Shown here: piece by piece, positions 38,191 to 52,839 of the stretch | Position numbering within the stretch: position 1 is the stretch's first letter | How the letters are laid out: each line of letters opens with the position of its first letter | Origin: Alternaria dauci | Taxonomy: Eukaryota; Ascomycota; Dothideomycetes; Pleosporales; Pleosporaceae | Assembly: GCF_042100115.1 (NCBI RefSeq) | Contig: NC_091279.1 | Span: forward strand, 1,736,001 to 1,800,000 | DNA length: 64,000 nucleotides | Direction: 5' to 3' | Made by a program: the position numbers and the translations under genes | Notes under the pieces: model-generated | Told to the model about the DNA's origin: nothing | Database searches by the model: none | What the model saw: the letters and a program-made list of their open reading frames with translations, nothing else

Positions 38191-41100
38191 CTACGCCACG
38201 TAGTAGAGCTTCATAGAGCTCAACACACGCTTTCTGCATACAGGGCAATTCTGCACCTCTCGTGCGCACGTCAAGCAAGCTACCACATGGCCGCAATCGT
38301 AGAAAGCCGCTTCTGCATCCCCATCCCAGCAGATTCTACACAATCGCTCGGATTCCTGGGCATTCTTCCAGTGCGTAACACCCTCGCCAAATTTCTTGTC
38401 GTTTTGCCATCCGCCGACGTATGTATTGCCATTTGCGGCTTCGACGTAGGTGCCGGTGCCGTGTTGTTGGTTGTCGACCCAGTCGCCGTCATATGTATCG
38501 CCGTTCTGGAAAGTGTACAGGCCATGGCCGTAACGCTGGCCCAGGCGGAAAGAGCCATTGTAAGTGGCGCCGGAGTGGTAAATCTTGGTACCGTGCCCAT
38601 GCGCGAAGCCATTAACAATCTCGCCCTTGTAATATTCGCTTGAGAAGTAGTTGTAGGTAAAGTGACCTTGCAACTTGTGAGGGAAGTTGCGTGCGAAAGC
38701 GCGGAACTGGAGGTAGCTCTGAGGATCTGCAAAGGCAGCGCGGGCTGCGAGTGCGTTACGCTTCTCAGCCGAGAGCGGTAACGCGACAATGATGATACAC
38801 GCGTTGTGTAGATCTACTTGCGCAAAGTTGCGGCGGTGCTTTAGAGACCGTGTGTTAGTCAGCTCATCCTCCTCGTACATCTCCATCTTCTTCTTGTCTT
38901 CCAGGCCGAGTAGTGCCACAACCGTCTCGTCTACCCTAGCAGACTTGAGTGCAATATGCGATCCTCGTCCCTCTAAGGTTTGCTTTTCAGGGTTCCAGAA
39001 TTTTAGGAAGAAGTAGATCTCGTCTGGAGGTGGCTCAGGTGTGCGGCTGCGCATTGGTGGGGGTGGTTGCAGATGCTGTACAGGCGTTTCGACTGGTGGA
39101 GGTGGGGGTGGAAATATATCTTCTTGCGTACCGCCCATCTCGGTGTCACCGGGACCGGCGCTTGGAATCAATACATCAACGGCTGGTGGGTCAATGGCGG
39201 GAGTTTGTTCCACTTCCAACATAGCCATGTCATTGCTTCCAGTATTGATTGCGGATGGCGGTGGCGGTGGCGCATCAACTTCCGATGCGTGAGGCTGTAG
39301 CTGCTCTGATTGCGCAGCAGCTGGCTCGTCAGAATCGCGCATAGGTGTATCCTCCAATGGTTGAGGGGTCTGTGGTGGTGGCGTACTCGAAGAGGGCTCG
39401 ACAGCACTCTCAACCACTTGGATCGCATCCAGTTCAGCGCCAACTCCCTGTAGAGATGAAGAAGATGTACTCTGGTGGGACACCTCTGGGACCTTCTCCT
39501 CTCCTTTTGGAAGCTCAGGAAGCTTTTCGAAGTCGGTGATATGCACCCAGATCGTCCGACAGGCAGACGGTGGCACCTCCAAAGTCCATCCATTGGTTTC
39601 CGTATATCTGTTGTAGCTACCAGCGGAAAACTCGATGATTCCAGTGCTGAGAAAGTTTGGTCGATCGAATGCTCCACGTGTTGGATCAAGGAACCAGAAC
39701 TTTATTTGGCGCGGATCCTTGACATCGGTCAAAACACCGGCCACCTTCTCCCGAATGTCTTTGCACCCGTCTCTGCTTGAAAGCGACAAAGTATGAATGT
39801 GCTTTGAGTTGTCCGCTTCCCACTGCGCATCAAAGGCGTCGAAGACACCCGGGCCTTCATGTTCCAGGTATGCTCGCGATTCGATGACACGGAAATCAAG
39901 CGACTTTGATGGTTCTGCAATTACTTCTTTTCGCTCTTCTTGGTCGAGAGCAGAGTTTGGCCCACCGATCGGTGGTAGCGGCATCGGAGGAAGAGAATTC
40001 GGATTCTTCTTGGATTCTACCTCCAACTTGAGCCACTCTGGGACATTCCACCGCTCCGACTCACCGTCCGAGACAAATGCCGAGCGAGCTACATCATCTC
40101 GAACATACATGGCAATGTATGCCACAGGGTCATTTCCAATGATCTGGGTGCTGCCAACTTTGCCTTCATGCGCGTCCACTGCTTCGCGTTTGGCAAGGCA
40201 TCTGACATGGTTCTCATCCTTACTGTCAGAATAGCTGTACCAGCGTGATTTGGGTCCTTCGGGTCGGAGTATCGGTTGGTATACGTAGGACTGAAGTGTT
40301 TGCTTGTGAACCACAAACCCGTATAGTATGTACGGAGTGTCGGCGACTACTATTCGATTGTCTAAGGTCACCTTGTTCAGAACCTTGACATGTGAACGCG
40401 TCTTCACACTGTCGAATTTATGCCGATCCAGCTCAATGGTCAATAGTTCTGGCAGAGGCTGTCCTGGAATGATGAGATCAGGTGACTGGTTAACAGCATC
40501 CTGCATGCTGTCCACACCTTCTACAGGCACGCGGTAGCTTGGCCTACCGGTCGAATAGTCGCGTTTCGGTCCACAGATAGCTTCGAGTCGGGCAGCGTAA
40601 GGTGTGCCTTGGAGCTCTTCCTCGAGCTTGAGGCGCAGGACTTCCCATGTCTCTATCACATCCAACTTATCGAGACCCTCGTGTATGCGATACCACTCTA
40701 ATGCGTCGATGATATCATCGAGAGCAACGGGACCAGCCCCAGGCTCGACTTGAGTTCGTAGCATGTACAGAACTTGCTGCAGAGCACTGGTGAGTGGCTT
40801 AGGCCGAATGAAAGGTTCATCGTTAGGGTCTGGCACGTTGATGCTGTACAAGAGATCCCGGAAAGGCTTGAATAGTATCCACGAAGAGATTGCAGAGATC
40901 ATGTTGCCGCCAGGCGCACTAGCGTTTTCTCCGAGCATGAGACCTTGTAGTCCTGTCATCGCGAAGCTATCCCACGGGTTCTCCCTGATCGGATGCTCCC
41001 ACAGGCAGTCGGTTTGGTCTTCCACAACCCGGATGTAAGCAGTGAAGGCAAGTTTGTCGTCACGAAGGAGTGCCATGCGCTGGCCGGGTATCCGGCGAGA

Positions 41101-42480
41101 GATATCGTAGTGCGGCCCATGGAAACGCGTCCAACCCCAGTCAGGAGAGCCGTTGCAGAAACGATGCAAAGCAGTCCGCGAGTAGTTTACCCGGGGTTCT
41201 GTCGGATTGTAAAGAACGACCGATATCTGCGCGGCAACACTATTCCGCTTAGGCATCTTCTTCGACCCGAGAAGCGGAAGAGGTGTATGCTGAGTGACCA
41301 TTGGTTTCTGAACACCGCCCGATGCTGACTTGACGCTGTCACGTCGATCTTGTGCAAGATTCTCAACCTGAGCAGATGCCTTGGTTGCTCCGTCCGCTGG
41401 GGTGTTTTCGGCTGTTACCGTGACCTCGTCTGCCTTCTTCTCCCCTTTTGGTGTAACTGCTTCGCCGCTAGGCACGTCTTTTGTGAAATCATCACCCTTG
41501 TTGTCCTTTGAATCCTGGACACTTAGGCATTCGAGATAGACGCTGAGATAATCTGAATCATTCCCCTTAGGGTAAAACTTGATTTGCCATTGGTGGCCTC
41601 CAATAGTCACGATTTCAGATTTCATGACCACCTCATGGTTTTGCTTGTCCTTTGTGCCATTGTATGCATCGATTGCCCAGTGGATGCGTCCTGTTTCGCC
41701 AGGAGTGTACTCTGGATGTTCCAGAGACTTGAACGCCTCGCCCTCCCAGTATTCGTGGTCCAGAGCACTGTGTTCTCCCCGCTCCTCGATCTCCTTCAGT
41801 TCCCCCTCGTCAGGCGACGACAAGTCTTCTGGTAGCGGGTGCCATGGTGGGAGACCATCTTCGTCGTCAGAAGACCCCGAGTCGGAGCGCGGGGGATCGA
41901 CGGGCGGAGGAGGAGGCGGAGGCTGTGTGCTGGGATCGATGGGTGAAGGTAGCGCGTGGGGGTGAACGGGTGGAGGGGGGTCTGTGGGAAAGACTGTCTC
42001 TGTCTGGGCTGTATCAGTAATGAACATGCGGGTTGAAGTGCCCCCGTAATGGTGTAGAGGCCGACTCACGGTATCGTCTGGCACAGGCGCAGGTGATGCT
42101 GGTGTAGTGGTGGTAGTCTCTTGCGCCTCAGACGAGCCATTTGGCAGTAGCAGTTCCGCCTCGATGTCCGGCGTGACATCCATGGCGTCTTCGTCTATAG
42201 CCGATATCTCCACAGCGATGGTGTTTGTGGAAGCGTCGCGACGGGCGGGCTCATCTCCATCTTGCATCTCCGCATCGCCCCGATCATGGTTCTGGCCTGT
42301 GGACGGCATCGTGTCCGTGGAAGTAGGGGCATTCATGTCTGTTTCGGCAGCCGGCGGTGGTGGTGGGGGCGGTGGATGAGGAGAAGCTGGCGTGTGCGCA
42401 TGAAGTACGTGGTCTGGTGAATGCGGCGGGCTGGACAGCTGCTGGCTAAAGTGTAGCGCTGGCTCTACGCTGACACTCAT
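38191..42480 (-). CDS. MATH / pseudo-USP7 / ubiquitin-like / MORN / RING fusion protein
   Basis: A 1429-residue protein in one frame. ATG 42480 is the only ATG of the frame near the start (upstream it opens at TTG 42702). The first 260 residues are Pro-rich and disordered. A MATH-like domain starts near 284 (GGHQWQIKFYPKG). A USP-like fold follows (about 505-790), with LTIELDRHKF, PYILYGFVVH and VAYIAMYVRDD in USP7 order. The Cys box reads GENASAPGGN (517-526) instead of the N-x-G-x-x-C-Y pattern, the His box reads LQSYVYQ (729-735) with no His, and the Asp segment reads YSYSDSKDE. The domain therefore looks catalytically dead. Two USP7-type ubiquitin-like domains follow (about 870-990, 1153-1262), then four MORN repeats (about 1280-1370) and a C3HC4 RING (1381-1419). 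A 66-nt in-frame stretch (42069-42004) has intron-like ends. Probably an E3 with a ubiquitin- or substrate-binding scaffold. Confidence 0.85.
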   Translation of the reverse strand: MSVSVEPALHFSQQLSSPPHSPDHVLHAHTPASPHPPPPPPPPAAETDMNAPTSTDTMPSTGQNHDRGDAEMQDGDEPARRDASTNTIAVEISAIDEDAMDVTPDIEAELLLPNGSSEAQETTTTTPASPAPVPDDTVSRPLHHYGGTSTRMFITDTAQTETVFPTDPPPPVHPHALPSPIDPSTQPPPPPPPVDPPRSDSGSSDDEDGLPPWHPLPEDLSSPDEGELKEIEERGEHSALDHEYWEGEAFKSLEHPEYTPGETGRIHWAIDAYNGTKDKQNHEVVMKSEIVTIGGHQWQIKFYPKGNDSDYLSVYLECLSVQDSKDNKGDDFTKDVPSGEAVTPKGEKKADEVTVTAENTPADGATKASAQVENLAQDRRDSVKSASGGVQKPMVTQHTPLPLLGSKKMPKRNSVAAQISVVLYNPTEPRVNYSRTALHRFCNGSPDWGWTRFHGPHYDISRRIPGQRMALLRDDKLAFTAYIRVVEDQTDCLWEHPIRENPWDSFAMTGLQGLMLGENASAPGGNMISAISSWILFKPFRDLLYSINVPDPNDEPFIRPKPLTSALQQVLYMLRTQVEPGAGPVALDDIIDALEWYRIHEGLDKLDVIETWEVLRLKLEEELQGTPYAARLEAICGPKRDYSTGRPSYRVPVEGVDSMQDAVNQSPDLIIPGQPLPELLTIELDRHKFDSVKTRSHVKVLNKVTLDNRIVVADTPYILYGFVVHKQTLQSYVYQPILRPEGPKSRWYSYSDSKDENHVRCLAKREAVDAHEGKVGSTQIIGNDPVAYIAMYVRDDVARSAFVSDGESERWNVPEWLKLEVESKKNPNSLPPMPLPPIGGPNSALDQEERKEVIAEPSKSLDFRVIESRAYLEHEGPGVFDAFDAQWEADNSKHIHTLSLSSRDGCKDIREKVAGVLTDVKDPRQIKFWFLDPTRGAFDRPNFLSTGIIEFSAGSYNRYTETNGWTLEVPPSACRTIWVHITDFEKLPELPKGEEKVPEVSHQSTSSSSLQGVGAELDAIQVVESAVEPSSSTPPPQTPQPLEDTPMRDSDEPAAAQSEQLQPHASEVDAPPPPPSAINTGSNDMAMLEVEQTPAIDPPAVDVLIPSAGPGDTEMGGTQEDIFPPPPPPVETPVQHLQPPPPMRSRTPEPPPDEIYFFLKFWNPEKQTLEGRGSHIALKSARVDETVVALLGLEDKKKMEMYEEDELTNTRSLKHRRNFAQVDLHNACIIIVALPLSAEKRNALAARAAFADPQSYLQFRAFARNFPHKLQGHFTYNYFSSEYYKGEIVNGFAHGHGTKIYHSGATYNGSFRLGQRYGHGLYTFQNGDTYDGDWVDNQQHGTGTYVEAANGNTYVGGWQNDKKFGEGVTHWKNAQESERLCRICWDGDAEAAFYDCGHVVACLTCAREVQNCPVCRKRVLSSMKLYYVA

Positions 42481-43278: not shown

Positions 43279-44544
43279 TCATTGCCCTTGCGACCGCTGC
43301 ACTCGTGCGAAGGTGGCCGCAACGATGAGCGGGAACACGACCGTCGCCTCTGCGTATACTTTGACGCTATCTCCGTCTAACCTGATCTTCCCCCAGCTGA
43401 CAGCCTCGTCTGGGCGTGCTCCCGCATCGCTCCCATCGAATTCTTGCGCCGTGTTGATGTACACCGCACTGTCGGCTCCATTGCGCATCAAGTTTGCATT
43501 GGCGATGTGATGCTTCACCAGTCCGCCACCCAGGACAATCATGCCCGTCCTCTTCGCCCTTACTGCGATTGTGTTGATCTTCCTGATGTCCTCTACGATG
43601 TCGACGCGTAGCTGTTCTGGCGACGACTTGAATGTGTGAAAGTACAACATGTCGCCCAAGCTTCCATCCGTCAGTGCCGGGCAGAAGACGGGAATGTCGT
43701 TCTTCCATGCCCAGTAGTAGACGGATCGCTCGTCATCAATCTCCTTGCCCAGCCGGTGAATGATTTTGCTTGGTGTCCAGTGTAATGGCTCGTCTGTCTT
43801 CTTGCTTGCTTCCTGCTCCTCCAGCATCTTGTCCAGAATGGGCACTACCCAGTCCTCGAACGCGCAGTAGTTGCTGTTAGGAACGACAAGATTACCGATG
43901 CGGTTCATGCCCTTTGCTCGCAGCCCGGCGCCAGGCGTGGAGAAGGCGCCGAGATATGTCGGTGCAAGACATTTGATAAAGTCTTCTTCGACACCGCCTG
44001 CAGTCGTCACGATGGCGGAGACGTGTTTGTGCTGGACCAGGTACCGCAGCGTCTCGCGCAGCCCCGAGGATATCAGGTTCGACGTGTATCCAAGGAATAT
44101 CGTCGTCGACTCATTCGTCTCCGTGTCCTTCCATGCGCGCTGCTTGTCATCAGCAGGAACCCCAGGCTTCTCGATACAGTGGTGTCGCGTCACCGAATCA
44201 GGCTAAATGTTTCGTCTTTCGGAACAGCGCACGGACGGGAACTTCCCGACATACGCAAGTGCTGTCTCCGCACTTGACGCTGACACGCCGCAGCACGCGC
44301 ATTTCGGATAATCCGGGCAGAAGCAACTTACCATGTCGTTGATGATTCGCACAGCCTCTCCCACTGAAGTTGCCTGGAAGCCCATGTTGGCGTACCCGCC
44401 CACCAGCTCCTCGACTGTGATGCTGCGCGACGCATACTGGTTGAAGTCGATGCCCTGCACCTCTTGCGCACCCTCAGGCACGGGCTCGGATGGCTTCAAG
44501 ACTGCATCAGTGGCGCCGGTAGGGGCCGAAGAGCTGCTAGCCAT
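43279..44544 (-). CDS. DYS1: Deoxyhypusine synthase
   Basis: Uses spermidine and NAD to convert one lysine of eIF5A to deoxyhypusine in the cytosol. Two exons (44544-44332, 44139-43279) join in phase to 357 residues. The join reads [32 protein letters not shown], as expected for fungal enzymes. NAD/spermidine-site motifs are intact: [56 protein letters not shown] with the catalytic lysine, then [17 protein letters not shown]. The open frame extends upstream to GTG 44706 but ATG 44544 is the first ATG. The intron is 192 nt, long for this region. Confidence 0.95.
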
Positions 44545-45915: not shown

Positions 45916-48900
45916 ATGTCTGCCTCACGGTACCCGGAGAATGGCAGATATGCCCGCGACAGGTCTCCGCCCTATCGGGACCGAGATCGAAGACCATCCA
46001 ACTTTGGCGGCGGATACCCCCCAAGGGGTAACGAGACCTTTAGGCCAAACGCCGAGCCAGGCGGCTTCCAAAGAGAGATTCCCAAAGGTCCAAAATCATC
46101 AATTGCTGATCCGCCACGTGGCCCGCCTGTGGGCCCACCACCCAGTGCGTCTGCAGCGCCGCGCGATGAAAGAGGTCGAGGATTCGCTGGACGTGGAGAA
46201 GCCACGCCGCTGCGAACTGCACCTCCGCTGAGTAGTGGCCCCGGGTTCCCGCACAACTCTCAAAACTCGTGGAGAGCAGACCGCGATCGAGATCGCGACT
46301 TTGACCGGCGTGAGAGACGGCCAACTCCACCCAGGCGGTCACCTATTCGGGACTCAAGAGATTCCCGCGATCAGAGGGACTTTGGACCGCGAGATCTAGA
46401 CGTCAATCGCGCCCGACGGAACTCACGAGACGGACCCCCTTCTGCAGGCTCAACTTATTCTGATCCCCCGCCTCCTGGCGCGGCGTCATCTTATCGTGGC
46501 AGTGGGATTGGACGTGGACGCGGCGGTTTCGCGGGACGCGGCCGCACCTTTCACAACGACGACCGGGACAAACATCACGACTCACGTGATCGCATTCCAG
46601 AACGAACATATCGGCCGCGGAGTCGGACGCCCCCAAGACGCCTAGAGAGAGATGTCCGTGAAGATCGTGACTTCGACAGGAGAGACCGTGACGACCGAAG
46701 GTTTCCCAGAGAATACGATTCCTACATTGGCCCAGCAGGTGCTGCGAAGCCTGGACTACGAGCACTGGATACACATCGAGGTCCAGGTCCCTCTGATCTG
46801 CGACATCTACCTGGTACACCCACAGGCCCAACACCGCACTCTGCTCATCACGCGTCTCCGTCTGATAGGCTAGGACCACAAGGAGATTCTTACTCCAGAC
46901 GATCTTCCCTCGCTATTGATCCTCTTTCTGCCAAGGATCCTCGCCGCGAGCCAGGTAAAGACGAGGCTCTCCTAGCTAGCCGTGCAGAAGCATCTAGAGA
47001 GAGGTATGCTCCGCGTGCTTCGTCACCTCCTGCTTCCATCCCAGCCTTTGGCGGATCCAATGTTTGGAGGGCGCCTATTTCGGACAGCAAATCGAGCGCT
47101 GCCCCAGTAGCGCCATCAAAACCTGCTCCGCCTGCCCCTGTTCCTACTCACTCCTCTGCTGCCCCACTCACTCCTGCTACCCCCATTACCCCAGTGAAAG
47201 CCACCGTAGTTCCTACCGCACCAAAAGCGGCGATACCCCCAGGTCTTTCAACTTTACCACCAACTGGACCAAAAGCCGATCGGGCACCGGATCGTCCTTT
47301 GCTTGCAGATACTCCGAAACAAGAGAGTAGAATAACGCACCCAGCTCCAGCACGTATGGAACCACCTTCTATTCCAACCCACAATGTTACGCCTCAGGCC
47401 GCTGATGTACCAGCTTCAGATAACATGGCTGCCAAGATTCCAATGCCACCACAGATGCCTGCACCCCCTAAAGTTTCATCCGTTATGCCACCAGCTGGTC
47501 CTATGGCTCCTAATCCGCCATCGGGCCCGGCGAAATCCCCTCCCCAGGGTCTCGCTCCACGACCGCGTGCACCACCCACAGCTCCTCAAGCAGCGCACCG
47601 TGTCAACGTATCACCCTCGTTCTCTAGAGCAACTCTACCGCAATACGCTCCTCGAGATGCATCTCCTGGTGCAAACCCCTCAGGTTTTGGTCCACGTGGC
47701 GGTGGCGTAGGAGGCTCTGTGTTGAACACATCGCCACAAAGCTTACCAGCGAATATCCCTACAGGACCCAAAGCTGATCGAACACCGATGGCCCCTAGGC
47801 CGCTTCCATCCTATCCACAATCTGACCGTCCTGGTTTTCCTCCCGCTAGAGGTCCACTGAATGGAGGACCTAAGAGCATGCAATGGGTGCGACCTGGTTT
47901 TAATTCGAGTCGACCTTCGGTTCCCACTAAGCGCGAGTTTCCGGCGGAAGATCGGGAACGACCATCATTCGGCACTGCTCCCAAAGCCCCTCGGCTTGAC
48001 AACAGTGTCTCAGCAACACAGACTCAACGAATTTCGCAAGCAAAATCGGTGTCGCCGTCATTCTCGCGCATCTCAACTGAACCCGAGCGGCCAAGAGAAC
48101 GTGCGGTGTCTGCAGAGCGTCCTGCGGCGCCCTCACCCAAGCCTACTTCGATCGAGACTAGGCGGTACTCTGATGTAGTCATGGCAGAAGCATCACCTCG
48201 TATGGCCAAACCACCTATGTCGGCTGCGTCATCCGCTCCTGAGGCTCTGCAAGACTCTGATGATGATCTTGACCTCGACGAGGACGACTTCGCTGAATCA
48301 GAGGCGAAGTACAACCGAGAACGAGCGCGTCTGGAAGCGAAACGGGTTGATCTGAGTGCCCCACACCTCCGAGCTACGACACCTTTGCAAGAAATTGTTT
48401 TGCTGTCATGCCTAAACGTCGACCATCTCCCACAAACACAGCCCGATGTCGAGCTTGCCGAAGAGATAAGCACACCTTTGCTTCAGGATCAGGATCAGGA
48501 ACAAGAACAGGAACTAAGACAGGAACAGGAGCAGGAGTATTCACGTCCCTCACCTGCTCAAGAACTTCCTGTGAAGCCAGTCTCGGTTCAGCCGCTTCCG
48601 GAGAGCATCACGGCAGATTTACCGACTCCCAAAGCTGAGGAGTCAGAGGATGTCGAGATGGAGGACAAAGAGGAGACCGAAGAAAGATCGGCCGCGCCCG
48701 CGACCATGGCACTACGTCTGCGACGTGAGACTTCTGCCGAGGAGGAGACCCTGCCAGACCTCAGCTCGTTGCCCTATCTAGGATCAGGTCCTCCAACACC
48801 CCTCTCCGACATTGGACAGGACCGACCGAATCTCTCCGACGATGTCATGAATGCCATCCGAAGCAAATTACGCAAGAGCATCGAGCCTGAACTGAATACC

Positions 48901-51900
48901 GATCAGATACTCGAAAGATACGCAGCTGCATACAGAGAGTGGCGAGTGGCTATCCGTCCTTTGGACGAAGAGCGCGAACAAGATGATCAGGACAGGCAGC
49001 CATCAGCCGAACCCACACTGAAAGCCGTCACCCCCGATGTGCAGAACGCTGCGATGACTGGAATTCTGGATGGATCGCTAGCACCTACAGGCCGGAGAAG
49101 TCATGCAAGTCGGTGGGCTACTGAGCTTGATTTGGAAGCCGTTATTAAAGAGTCCTTGAAGACTGCCGAGGAGGAGAAGATGGGCAAGAACAACAAGGAA
49201 CCAAGGAAAGCCATGGCTGATCCAGAAAAGGAAGCTGACCTACCTCTGGAACTCACCGAGGCTGAGGCTCAGCGGAGAAGGTTTATTGACACCAATTTCC
49301 AACGCGAACCCGGCCAAGGTATCTTCGTGTTTCATTACGAGCCACCAGAGGATGACTTCACTCCCGACGAACATCGCGTTATGGTGCAGAACTACAAGGA
49401 TCAGTACGCTAAGAAATGGGGTAAGCTGGCTGAAGTCCTTTACAAAGAAGTCGGGACCGAACGTACCTACAAAGACTGTATCAATCACTACTATGCTACC
49501 AAATGGGGCAGAGAATACAAAGGCAAACTCAGGAAACCGCGAGCTTCCAGGAAACGTGGCGGAGCGGTCGGTCGTGGCCGCGGAGCTATCGCCAATATGG
49601 ACCGGCCCGAAGGACCGGGAGAGGATGGTTTGCCCTTGCCTGTTACTGAGACCGGACGACCTAGGCGCTCAGCAGCACCCAAATTTGGCCCAACAGAGAC
49701 TGAGTTCGACCCGATCACAGGAATCCCCATTCCAGGCCGTGCACGCAGGCCGACTGACGCCGACGATACACAAGAGAAGGCTATGCGGCGCGGAAAGGCT
49801 GCGAAGGATAAACTTGGCCGGAAGGCAAAGAACATGCCACTTGCAGCGGCTCCCATGGGTTCACCTGTCAAGGTTGATCGTAAGGACAAGAATATGGGAG
49901 TCAAGATGGAGGATGATCTCAGCAAACGGCCGATGGGCGATATGTCCATACCTATGCCCCTCATCCCCATGGAAGACCAGTTGATGCTGTCTGGTGATTT
50001 GCAACAGCTGTCCGGGTTGCCAAGTAGCCTCATGGATCGACCGAAGACACAGCCTGGCGCCAGACCCGGTCCGTCTAGCTACTGGTCCGTCTCTGAGTTA
50101 CAAGACTTTGACAAGAATGTTGCACACTTTGGCACCGACTGGATAGCAATCGCAAATCACATGGGCACCAAAACGCACACCATGATTAAGAACCAATATC
50201 TGCGTCTTGTCGAAAGTGGCAAGCTAGACTTGGAGCAGGTAGCAAAAGAGGCAGACGCCCGAAGAGAACGCGGTGATGATCTAGGACCACCGCCAACGCC
50301 TACTCCAGCACCCAAGAGACGGTATGAGAGTACGCAGGCGGGACCCATCCGCCCCATTGCACCTACACCTGAACATGGTTCGCCACCTCCAAATCCGCTT
50401 GCGCTCCCCAAAGCATCCCCTCCGCATTCGACTCCCTCTTCGAGGTTTTCCACTATTGCCCAAGCACCTATGCAAACCAAGCCGATGGTGCCTCCACCCG
50501 GATATCCTGCCCTACCAGAGACTAGCCTTGCTTCTGTACCCTCAATACCACCACAGCAGTCGCCGCCCGCTCCACCTCAACGTGCACAACCACAACATCA
50601 TCACCAGCACTCCCTGTCGCAGCACAAGCCTCAGCCACAAGGGCCACGAGCTGGATACTTCTCAGAAGAGCCTTCCAGGTTTGAGGCCCGACCACCCTCG
50701 CAACCATCGAACAACCAACAACCACATAGGCCACTACAGCAGCAGCAGCAGCATGCCCCACCCCAGCCTCGTGCACAAGAGCAACATCATTCACCTCTCT
50801 ATCGCGGGCTCCATTACCCAGAACGAGACAGTGTGGGTAGGTCGGAAGTTCAGCAGGAGCAGGAGCATCAACGCCGGATCCATGAACACAGACGCCAGAT
50901 ATCACAGGAGATGTCACAACATAGACCCTTTGCTCCTGGTGCGGCACCGCCAATCATGCCGCCAGTACGTTCAAACTCTGTGCTGAGGTCACCAGAACGT
51001 CGTTCGTTGCCGTTCTCACATTCGCGCCACCCATCGCAAGCGCAATCACTCAATCAAGCTGCAACGGATGTATATTCTCCGAGTCATGGCACTAGCCACG
51101 CTGCGCAACAACTGCCGCCCAGATCAAGTATTCTTACACCGCCTGTCAAGGAGGAGCCTAGAAATCCTCCTCCGGTCAGCCTTCCTCCAGCACAACCCCA
51201 AGCAATGCTGCATACACAGATGCAACATCCTCAGCGTGGTCCACCGCCTATGCAAAATACGCCCCCACCTGTAACATCAAAGCCAGCCGCGGAGCCACGC
51301 AAGTCTAACCTGATGTCGCTGCTCAATGATACCGACCCTGAGGAGCCTAGGCGTAAGAAACCTAGCGAACAAGGCCCACCATCACATTCATCTACGCCTC
51401 TGCAGTCAGCACCAGTCGCACCTCCTCCAACAACGCAAAGCTACTCATCCTCGTCAAGACGTCCACTTTACGAAGATCCAATGGCTGCTCAGCCTCCCTA
51501 TACTCGTCCATCCTCATATGCTCAGCAATCCTCGCTTCCAAATGCAGCACCAAGCAGGCCGATCGACTTAACGGATGACAAACAACCAGTGAGCAGACCG
51601 AGCCTACGTGACAGTTGGCAAGCCCAACAGCCGTTCCACCGAGGGCTGTCCCAGACCCCACAACTCACGCCACTTTCGTCAACACCGTCTGGTCTGCCTC
51701 AGCCGCCTAATGTGAACGAGAGGATTTTTAGCAACCACCGTTCTGTCTTTGCTCAGCATAATACCCCGCGCCAGAATCCGACGCCGCCACCCCTTGCCGG
51801 TTTCAACAATTCTCCGAACCCGCATTCGCGCACGTCAAGCATAAGTGGACCGCCCGGATCTATGCCTCGACACGGTATCCCAAGCACCACTGCGGCGCAG

Positions 51901-52839
51901 CATGCACAAGCAATGAGTGCATCAGCGCAGATCTTGCAGCCTAATCCATATGCCCAGGTCGATCCTCCAGGAAGCAGCGTAACGCCCTCTGGACCTATGG
52001 GCATGCGGCCCAGTCCGCATCTGTCAACAAGCCACATAGCACAGCAACGAGACGCATCTGGTCGCAGTGACCACTCCCAAGCTTCCAACACAAACCTGTC
52101 GTACTCAAATCCGCAAACGCCTAACGAGCATCCAGCGCATCCCTTCCAAGGACTGAGCAGACTGACTGAGCCATACCGTCCTCGCGATCCTCGTGATGCC
52201 CACGATTTTGACCCTCGTCACTCGGATCGCGACACCAGTCGAGAACTGTCGCAAAGGACTGAATATTTACGTGAACAACTTTCCAATCCTGCGTTGCGTG
52301 CGAACGGTCCTCCCATGCACGAAGATGTACGATTCCAGCCTCAAGATCGAGGATATCTCTCTCAACGATCACAGACCCCACTTTCTAGGTCGGAGCATGG
52401 CCAACCTCCACCTTTGCAACATCCTCCGCACTCATCGCTTGGCGTAGCAAATCAGTCGCTCTATGGTCAGCGCCCTCCTGAAGAACCACATCGTTTCATG
52501 CGCGATCCTCGTGATCGCAGCATGACAGACCGTATCCGTGAGGAGCAAGCCCAAGCTCAACATCAGGCAGCGATGAACCGAGACGAGCACATGCGAAGAG
52601 AAGCTGAGCGAGATGTGAGGGAACGGGAGATGCGCGAAAGCCATGCACGAGATGCGCATTACAGAGATAGTATCATGCGAGGAAGAGCTGAAATGAGGGG
52701 TCCGCCGCCACCACAAGCGCCGACGTCAGGACCAGGATCAATGCATGATCCACGGCCACCTGCAGGACCCATGGACTGGGTAAGCGGAGTGCGACATCCG
52801 CAGGGACATCCACAGGATCGCGGTCCATGGCAGCGATAG
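45916..52839 (+). CDS. SNT1: Snt1/NCoR-like SANT-domain corepressor (Set3 complex type)
   Basis: A 2307-residue protein in a single uninterrupted 6.9-kb exon. The N-terminus is RG/RD-rich (GRGRGGFAGRGR, DRDRD) and long Pro-rich disordered segments flank the core. SANT1 lies at about 1119-1205 (RRFIDTNFQREPGQGIFVFHYEPPEDDFTPDEH... CINHYYATKWGREYK) and a second SANT/Myb at about 1387-1430 (SYWSVSELQDFDKNVAHFGTDWIAIANHMG... MIKNQYLRL). This paired-SANT layout matches yeast Snt1 and animal NCoR/SMRT, which hold histone deacetylases in the Set3-type complex. The C-terminal 800 residues are Pro/Gln/His-rich with a short polyQ and end in an RE/RD-rich coil. Nuclear corepressor by homology; targets unknown. 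Confidence 0.85.
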   Translation: MSASRYPENGRYARDRSPPYRDRDRRPSNFGGGYPPRGNETFRPNAEPGGFQREIPKGPKSSIADPPRGPPVGPPPSASAAPRDERGRGFAGRGEATPLRTAPPLSSGPGFPHNSQNSWRADRDRDRDFDRRERRPTPPRRSPIRDSRDSRDQRDFGPRDLDVNRARRNSRDGPPSAGSTYSDPPPPGAASSYRGSGIGRGRGGFAGRGRTFHNDDRDKHHDSRDRIPERTYRPRSRTPPRRLERDVREDRDFDRRDRDDRRFPREYDSYIGPAGAAKPGLRALDTHRGPGPSDLRHLPGTPTGPTPHSAHHASPSDRLGPQGDSYSRRSSLAIDPLSAKDPRREPGKDEALLASRAEASRERYAPRASSPPASIPAFGGSNVWRAPISDSKSSAAPVAPSKPAPPAPVPTHSSAAPLTPATPITPVKATVVPTAPKAAIPPGLSTLPPTGPKADRAPDRPLLADTPKQESRITHPAPARMEPPSIPTHNVTPQAADVPASDNMAAKIPMPPQMPAPPKVSSVMPPAGPMAPNPPSGPAKSPPQGLAPRPRAPPTAPQAAHRVNVSPSFSRATLPQYAPRDASPGANPSGFGPRGGGVGGSVLNTSPQSLPANIPTGPKADRTPMAPRPLPSYPQSDRPGFPPARGPLNGGPKSMQWVRPGFNSSRPSVPTKREFPAEDRERPSFGTAPKAPRLDNSVSATQTQRISQAKSVSPSFSRISTEPERPRERAVSAERPAAPSPKPTSIETRRYSDVVMAEASPRMAKPPMSAASSAPEALQDSDDDLDLDEDDFAESEAKYNRERARLEAKRVDLSAPHLRATTPLQEIVLLSCLNVDHLPQTQPDVELAEEISTPLLQDQDQEQEQELRQEQEQEYSRPSPAQELPVKPVSVQPLPESITADLPTPKAEESEDVEMEDKEETEERSAAPATMALRLRRETSAEEETLPDLSSLPYLGSGPPTPLSDIGQDRPNLSDDVMNAIRSKLRKSIEPELNTDQILERYAAAYREWRVAIRPLDEEREQDDQDRQPSAEPTLKAVTPDVQNAAMTGILDGSLAPTGRRSHASRWATELDLEAVIKESLKTAEEEKMGKNNKEPRKAMADPEKEADLPLELTEAEAQRRRFIDTNFQREPGQGIFVFHYEPPEDDFTPDEHRVMVQNYKDQYAKKWGKLAEVLYKEVGTERTYKDCINHYYATKWGREYKGKLRKPRASRKRGGAVGRGRGAIANMDRPEGPGEDGLPLPVTETGRPRRSAAPKFGPTETEFDPITGIPIPGRARRPTDADDTQEKAMRRGKAAKDKLGRKAKNMPLAAAPMGSPVKVDRKDKNMGVKMEDDLSKRPMGDMSIPMPLIPMEDQLMLSGDLQQLSGLPSSLMDRPKTQPGARPGPSSYWSVSELQDFDKNVAHFGTDWIAIANHMGTKTHTMIKNQYLRLVESGKLDLEQVAKEADARRERGDDLGPPPTPTPAPKRRYESTQAGPIRPIAPTPEHGSPPPNPLALPKASPPHSTPSSRFSTIAQAPMQTKPMVPPPGYPALPETSLASVPSIPPQQSPPAPPQRAQPQHHHQHSLSQHKPQPQGPRAGYFSEEPSRFEARPPSQPSNNQQPHRPLQQQQQHAPPQPRAQEQHHSPLYRGLHYPERDSVGRSEVQQEQEHQRRIHEHRRQISQEMSQHRPFAPGAAPPIMPPVRSNSVLRSPERRSLPFSHSRHPSQAQSLNQAATDVYSPSHGTSHAAQQLPPRSSILTPPVKEEPRNPPPVSLPPAQPQAMLHTQMQHPQRGPPPMQNTPPPVTSKPAAEPRKSNLMSLLNDTDPEEPRRKKPSEQGPPSHSSTPLQSAPVAPPPTTQSYSSSSRRPLYEDPMAAQPPYTRPSSYAQQSSLPNAAPSRPIDLTDDKQPVSRPSLRDSWQAQQPFHRGLSQTPQLTPLSSTPSGLPQPPNVNERIFSNHRSVFAQHNTPRQNPTPPPLAGFNNSPNPHSRTSSISGPPGSMPRHGIPSTTAAQHAQAMSASAQILQPNPYAQVDPPGSSVTPSGPMGMRPSPHLSTSHIAQQRDASGRSDHSQASNTNLSYSNPQTPNEHPAHPFQGLSRLTEPYRPRDPRDAHDFDPRHSDRDTSRELSQRTEYLREQLSNPALRANGPPMHEDVRFQPQDRGYLSQRSQTPLSRSEHGQPPPLQHPPHSSLGVANQSLYGQRPPEEPHRFMRDPRDRSMTDRIREEQAQAQHQAAMNRDEHMRREAERDVREREMRESHARDAHYRDSIMRGRAEMRGPPPPQAPTSGPGSMHDPRPPAGPMDWVSGVRHPQGHPQDRGPWQR
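48484..48540 (+). repeat. In-frame CAGGAN hexamer repeat coding QD/QE
   Basis: Eight to nine degenerate CAGGAT/CAGGAA-type hexamers encode alternating Gln-Asp/Glu within the disordered part of the SNT1-like protein (residues about 857-875). Its unit keeps the reading frame whatever the copy number. Confidence 0.8.

Follow-up and report, generated by a model that had tools for sequence, protein, structure and literature searches.

A USP7/Ubp15 paralogue of Alternaria dauci that has lost its catalytic triad and is probably a RING-type ubiquitin ligase

We analyzed a stretch of 64,000 nucleotides from Alternaria dauci (assembly GCF_042100115.1, contig NC_091279.1, positions 1,736,001 to 1,800,000 of the forward strand), hereafter the window, and found in it a gene for a relative of the deubiquitinases USP7 and Ubp15 in which none of the three catalytic residues remains and whose C-terminal end carries MORN repeats and a RING. 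This protein is probably a USP7/Ubp15 paralogue turned into a RING-type ubiquitin ligase, in which the MATH domain would hold the substrate and the dead USP domain would serve as a scaffold. The gene is a single unbroken frame on the minus strand (38191..42480), which encodes 1,429 amino acids plus the stop, needs no intron and is also uninterrupted in the whole assembly (34.9 Mb, 10 contigs). All features given below with window coordinates lie on the minus strand unless marked otherwise. From N- to C-terminus, the protein consists of a MATH domain, a degenerate USP domain, segments of ubiquitin-like domains (UBLs), four MORN repeats and a C-terminal C3HC4 RING. Four Pfam families exceeded their cut-offs, namely MATH_2 (49.7 bits), tandem MORN in four stretches (46.3), zf-C3HC4_3 (44.6) and USP7_ICP0_bdg (43.9), and UCH, with 22.6 bits, fell just under its cut-off of 23.9.

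The loss of the triad was read from alignments with USP7 and Ubp15. Within the pseudo-USP body (residues 500-800; 40081..40983, delimited by profile alignments), the catalytic Cys aligns with G525 in the former Cys box GENASAPGGN (517-526; 40903..40932), the His with V733 in the former His box LQSYVYQ (729-735; 40276..40296) and the Asp with S751 in YSYSDSKDE (748-756; 40213..40239). The Asn of the Cys box aligns with L516. A first-pass annotation, made from the letters of the window, had called these three boxes degenerate; it had located them correctly, and the triad is indeed gone.

Comparisons were extended to 127 relatives (P0002-P0128), that is, all those listed by three homologue searches, the first contributing the best 120 of its 170 matches and the second the best 120 of 244; the 50 and 124 weaker matches lie outside this sample. 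The second search, seeded with a divergent sequence, returned mostly the same close kin among the matches listed, and the third, run with a short profile, returned one fragment. The best listed relative is a protein of Alternaria alternata, with 90% identity over residues 425-1429, and the four named relatives whose taxonomy was looked up (Alternaria alternata, Lophium mytilinum, Glonium stellatum and Lepidopterella palustris) all belong to the Pleosporomycetidae. No relative with an intact triad was found among the 127 listed. Position 525 holds a Gly in 123 relatives, a Ser in one and a gap in three, so that Cys occurs in none of the 124 readable sequences; at position 733, 124 relatives have Val, Leu, Ile or Ala and three again a gap, with no His; and at position 751 all 127 have Ser, Thr, Ala, Gly or Pro, never Asp. 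Gene models of P0083, P0100 and P0110 omit the stretch around the former His box, what looks like the result of false introns in a gene with a single open frame. Most relatives are named hypothetical or uncharacterised in the databases and some carry the names 'MATH and UCH domain' or 'ubiquitin carboxyl-terminal hydrolase'. Four of them (P0045, P0051, P0052 and P0064) are called 'ubiquitin carboxyl-terminal hydrolase' or 'ubiquitinyl hydrolase' despite the absence of the catalytic residues.

By sequence the protein is a USP7/Ubp15 relative, and we infer from this homology that its central part would adopt a USP fold. The genome retains an intact USP7/Ubp15 orthologue (L026, C2:3982500-3989500), with the motifs GATCYLNS, LNAGHYY and FDDDRV and an E-value of 1.1e-131 against human USP7. 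A family profile covering residues 258-995 matched this Ubp15 with an E-value of 7e-28 in forced global mode and of 3.8e-21 in local mode, in which the match covers residues 419-802. The local-mode match is unlikely to have arisen by chance, because the controls scored far weaker: the reversed sequence gave an E-value of 0.45, and 12 shuffled ones gave 0.021 to 0.75. When only the USP part of Ubp15 was compared, the E-value was 5e-7, and five shuffles gave 0.045 to 0.51. In addition, a USP-only profile placed the Ubp15 open reading frame (ORF) at the top of 144 ORFs, with a score of 51.0, the next one scoring 40.8 and the others at most 28.2. These 144 were the ORFs of at least 120 residues from L026 plus 20 of the 24 loci with USP matches in the genome, the remaining four matches being the gene of the window itself, Ubp15 and two C5 exons. 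Against the PDB, a five-member family profile matched chains of USP47 and USP7 with whole-sequence E-values of 1.8e-6 and 2.7e-6, the single stretches being weak; with the second UBL alone, the sole match was an acyl carrier protein (E-value of 0.97) and USP7 was absent.

The MATH, USP and UBL order of the USP7/Ubp15 family is present as well. The second UBL (residues 1149-1262; 38695..39036) is the Pfam USP7_ICP0_bdg match, and the first (861-990; 39511..39900) was placed by forced or extended profile alignment only, co-linear with Ubp15, so the protein likely has two UBLs. Pfam also found USP7_C2 in the Ubp15 of this genome. The same scan did not find it in the window protein, where the MORN-RING part occupies that end instead. 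Taken with the Pfam matches, the profile alignments and the loss of the triad in the listed relatives, this order bears out the earlier description of a dead USP7-like module. We also observed that the intact Ubp15 gene needs two introns in the stretch spliced for this comparison and the window paralogue none, a difference that might reflect either the loss of introns or an origin similar to that of a retrocopy. As presented in part of a review of fungal deubiquitinases, UBP15 is the MATH-type UBP of Saccharomyces cerevisiae, and Cryptococcus and Magnaporthe have one UBP15 each (PMC9599802). Doubling of a Ubp15-type gene is already known elsewhere, since fission yeast is described as having two MATH-type USPs, Ubp5 and Ubp15 (PMC2935449).

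The pseudo-USP body differs from that of Ubp15 in one further respect. The stretch running from the DVxE helix to the LPxLLTxEL strand (residues 607-675; 40456..40662) has 69 residues in the window protein, 34 fewer than the 103 of Ubp15. Ubp15 and USP7 align without gaps across it. The shortening is common to the relatives, with 68 to 70 residues in 126/127 and the remaining row empty there. We take the stretch to be the place of the fingers by which USPs hold ubiquitin. Around the former active site, H725, L729, Y734, R739, P740, G742, W747 and Y748 are invariant wherever a relative can be read, which is the case for 124 or 126 of the 127, the rest being gaps. Mean column entropies, calculated from 73 rows (72 of them hand-picked among 126 relatives), were 0.46 bits in the RING, 0.56 in the MORN repeats and 0.65 and 0.75 in the former His and Cys boxes, respectively, compared with 1.1-1.2 in the rest of the USP body, 1.25 and 1.59 in the UBLs and 2.2-2.5 in three variable linkers. 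Judged by these sequences, the former active pocket is not decaying.

Such conservation of the pocket, with its eight invariant residues, is what favors the mechanism put forward in the first-pass annotation, by which the dead USP body reads ubiquitin or ubiquitin chains and places the RING on targets that already bear ubiquitin, so that the protein extends chains there. The shortened stretch speaks against it: with 34 residues fewer than in Ubp15 at the presumed place of the fingers, the protein probably no longer grips ubiquitin in the usual way, and we consider this reading unlikely. The other half of the same proposal, that the module reads a substrate, fared better, as the MATH domain keeps the residues required for ligand binding in USP7.

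This domain is divided into a first half (residues 263-325; 41506..41694; Pfam MATH_2 at 267-323), a variable insert mostly without counterpart in Ubp15 (326-395; 41296..41505; mean column entropy of 2.5 bits) and a second half (396-490; 41011..41295) with the motif D447-W448-G449. In the MATH pocket of USP7, D164 and W165 are reported to be needed for P/A/ExxS ligands (PMC6203733). Equated by the DWG motif, these residues correspond to D447 and W448, both kept in 122/122 readable relatives. Because the genome retains a Ubp15 with the same D-W pair, the window paralogue and Ubp15 may share substrates. The second pocket described for USP7, formed by D762 and D764 of UBL2 (PMC6203733), was lost: the corresponding residues are N1226 and C1228, and position 1228 is Asp in 0/121 readable relatives.

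The presence of an intact paralogue in the same genome, and the description of pseudo-deubiquitinases as allosteric activators and scaffolds in part of a review (PMC10919355), would also suit a protein that regulates or scaffolds Ubp15 itself, paired with it through MATH or UBL contacts and setting its levels through the RING. No evidence of such contacts was found, none having been sought beyond sequence, and USP7_C2 was not detected in the window protein; we regard this role as improbable.

The ligase function that we favor is suggested by the C-terminal part. The four MORN repeats (residues 1283-1374; 38359..38634), identified by Pfam and PDB matches, are followed by the RING and its tail (1378-1429; 38194..38349), placed by Pfam and PDB alignments. 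Compared with the genome, the MORN-RING piece matched only itself and a second copy was not found; a whole-genome search with the MORN family gave no match and missed even the repeats of the window, which makes it uninformative. The best PDB matches of the RING were cIAP2, cIAP1 and XIAP. All eight C3HC4 zinc ligands are present in each of the 121 relatives that cover this part; in one further row, a Cys column shows a Leu next to a gap. At the linchpin position (R1416) there is Arg in 120/121 relatives and Lys in the other. The chain ends 14 residues past the last RING Cys, and within this tail Y1426, which aligns with the tail Phe of XIAP, is aromatic in 120/121, and K1424, aligned with the Arg in the cIAP1 tail, is replaced by nothing other than Arg in 120/121. 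An Ile and a Pro that we take to be contacts for the ubiquitin-conjugating enzyme (E2) are also kept. According to the published accounts consulted in part, a cationic linchpin is important for priming E2-bound ubiquitin, XIAP having a Tyr at this position (PMC12326332), and R614 and F616 of cIAP1 touch the donor ubiquitin in trans within the dimer (PMC6349121). Thus, the C3HC4 RING reported in the first-pass annotation is present, and with its ligands, Arg linchpin and aromatic tail kept in the relatives it looks to carry the sequence features of an active ligase.

A RING may be no more than structural, and the whole protein would then be a non-enzymatic MATH-MORN scaffold, which agrees with the occurrence of MORN repeats in proteins of a structural kind, radial spoke heads and junctophilins among them, as indicated by the molecule names of the PDB matches. 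Nevertheless, a purely structural zinc site needs neither the linchpin Arg, nor the presumed E2 contacts, nor the aromatic tail, all of which are kept, and this argues against such a scaffold, to which we give little credence.

Several points weigh against the interpretation of a dead deubiquitinase that became a ligase. Relatives with an intact triad may exist among the weaker 50 and 124 matches, and residue states common to the relatives are inherited by descent and not independent. Two exons of one more USP gene (C5) lie outside the ranking that placed Ubp15 on top. The first UBL falls outside the local profile match (residues 419-802), the MATH domain of the window, compared alone with the PDB, had SPOP as its sole match (E-value of 0.021), without any chain of USP7, and position 1226, the counterpart of D762, is Asp in 4/120 relatives. 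A RING can, as just discussed, be structural. Finally, the label of pseudo-deubiquitinase has been wrong before: USP53 and USP54, once taken for dead, are reported as active (PMC12037411), and USP39 is said perhaps to act via non-conserved residues (PMC10919355), both statements coming from sources seen in part. These two precedents, together with Cys residues at 318, 442, 492 and 761 that are conserved in nearly all relatives, would be in line with a protein that is still a deubiquitinase through an unusual set of residues. Against this stands the absence of Cys at the aligned position in all 124 readable relatives, one of which (P0108) has a Cys six residues upstream of the Gly, and the fact that the His and Asp positions were lost as well, so that persisting activity of this kind seems to us highly improbable.

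The window protein shares with USP7/Ubp15 the domain order and the MATH D-W pair, and Ubp15 is the closest USP among the loci compared. It departs from them by the missing Cys, His and Asp, the shorter presumed fingers, the lost D762/D764 pocket, the undetected USP7_C2, the MORN and RING end and the inserts within MATH and between the UBLs. Presentation of a substrate to a ubiquitin ligase by a MATH domain, as proposed here, is known from TRAF6, TRIM37 and SPOP, in which no dead USP follows the MATH domain and the RING or BTB arrangement is different. Dimeric RING ligases of the cIAP1, XIAP and MDM2 kind likewise have the RING at the very C-terminus, and the spacing of the MDM2 RING tail is similar; unlike them, the window protein lacks BIR, CARD and p53-binding parts and has MORN repeats before the RING. 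The likeness to cIAP1 includes the Arg linchpin and the basic and aromatic tail residues, R614 and F616 in the published description consulted in part (PMC6349121). Dead USP domains acting as scaffolds are described for USP39 and USP52, and deubiquitinase and ligase functions are united in one chain in A20 (ubiquitin) and USP36 (SUMO); among the proteins named in the parts of the review consulted, none combines a dead USP7 module with a RING (PMC10919355). We found no description of a MATH-USP-MORN-RING or dead-USP-RING protein among the open-licence PubMed Central papers listed by searches aimed at it, in agreement with the first-pass annotation, which knew of no characterised example. The component domains are of known kinds; in this literature, no paper was found that reports a dead USP7 module together with MORN and RING.

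Outside the recognized domains, residues 1-257 (41710..42480) form a mostly low-complexity, Pro-rich region without Pfam match, and the UBLs are separated by a variable linker (995-1148; 39037..39498) in which EDTPM and DTEMGG stand out as conserved islands. These variable parts contain D-x(1,2)-M motifs at residues 56, 69, 98, 1044, 1084 and 1112. The linker has three where 0.64 would be expected (p 0.021). The mean over 123 relatives is 3.09, with an expectation of 0.63, and 100 of these relatives have p <0.05. Residues 1-240 have three motifs where 1.1 would be expected (p 0.1), and 29/89 relatives reach p <0.05 there. The pattern was picked after the sequences had been seen. The two islands are possibly docking motifs.

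Upstream of the gene lies part of a deoxyhypusine synthase gene (43279..44193), recognized by its match to fused gene models of relatives. Its frame has a stop of its own at 43279-43281, separated by 798 bp from the frame of the window protein, and fusion of both genes was therefore rejected for the window. Nine of the 127 relatives are annotated as such fusions (P0026, P0072, P0083, P0090, P0096, P0100, P0101, P0110 and P0113), which suggests conserved adjacency and likely errors in gene models; read-through transcripts joining the two genes are also possible. Beyond the deoxyhypusine synthase gene, an ORF of 2,307 residues on the plus strand (45916-52839) is rich in Pro and Gln and resembles, by eye, a SANT/Myb chromatin protein.

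In the mechanism that we propose for a ligase, the MATH domain would hold a substrate motif, probably one similar to those bound by the MATH pocket of USP7, and the dead USP domain and the UBLs would set the geometry, as a predicted scaffold. The MORN-RING part would dimerise and transfer ubiquitin, with the aromatic tail acting on E2-bound ubiquitin in the way seen in cIAP1. The MORN repeats may provide a membrane or dimer contact, as the first-pass annotation suggested. The two paralogues of this genome may then act in opposite directions on overlapping substrates. More tentatively, a copied deubiquitinase might have been turned to the opposite purpose, combining the same MATH reader with a RING, and the pair might work as a toggle over shared targets in this group of fungi, an idea that we hold as possible rather than probable. 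If true, an eraser of ubiquitin would here have become a writer in nature, through three lost residues and the exchange of a tail, with the eraser parent persisting alongside for comparison. The role of pseudo-deubiquitinases would become directly testable, and the hydrolase names that some of the relatives bear in databases would be corrected.

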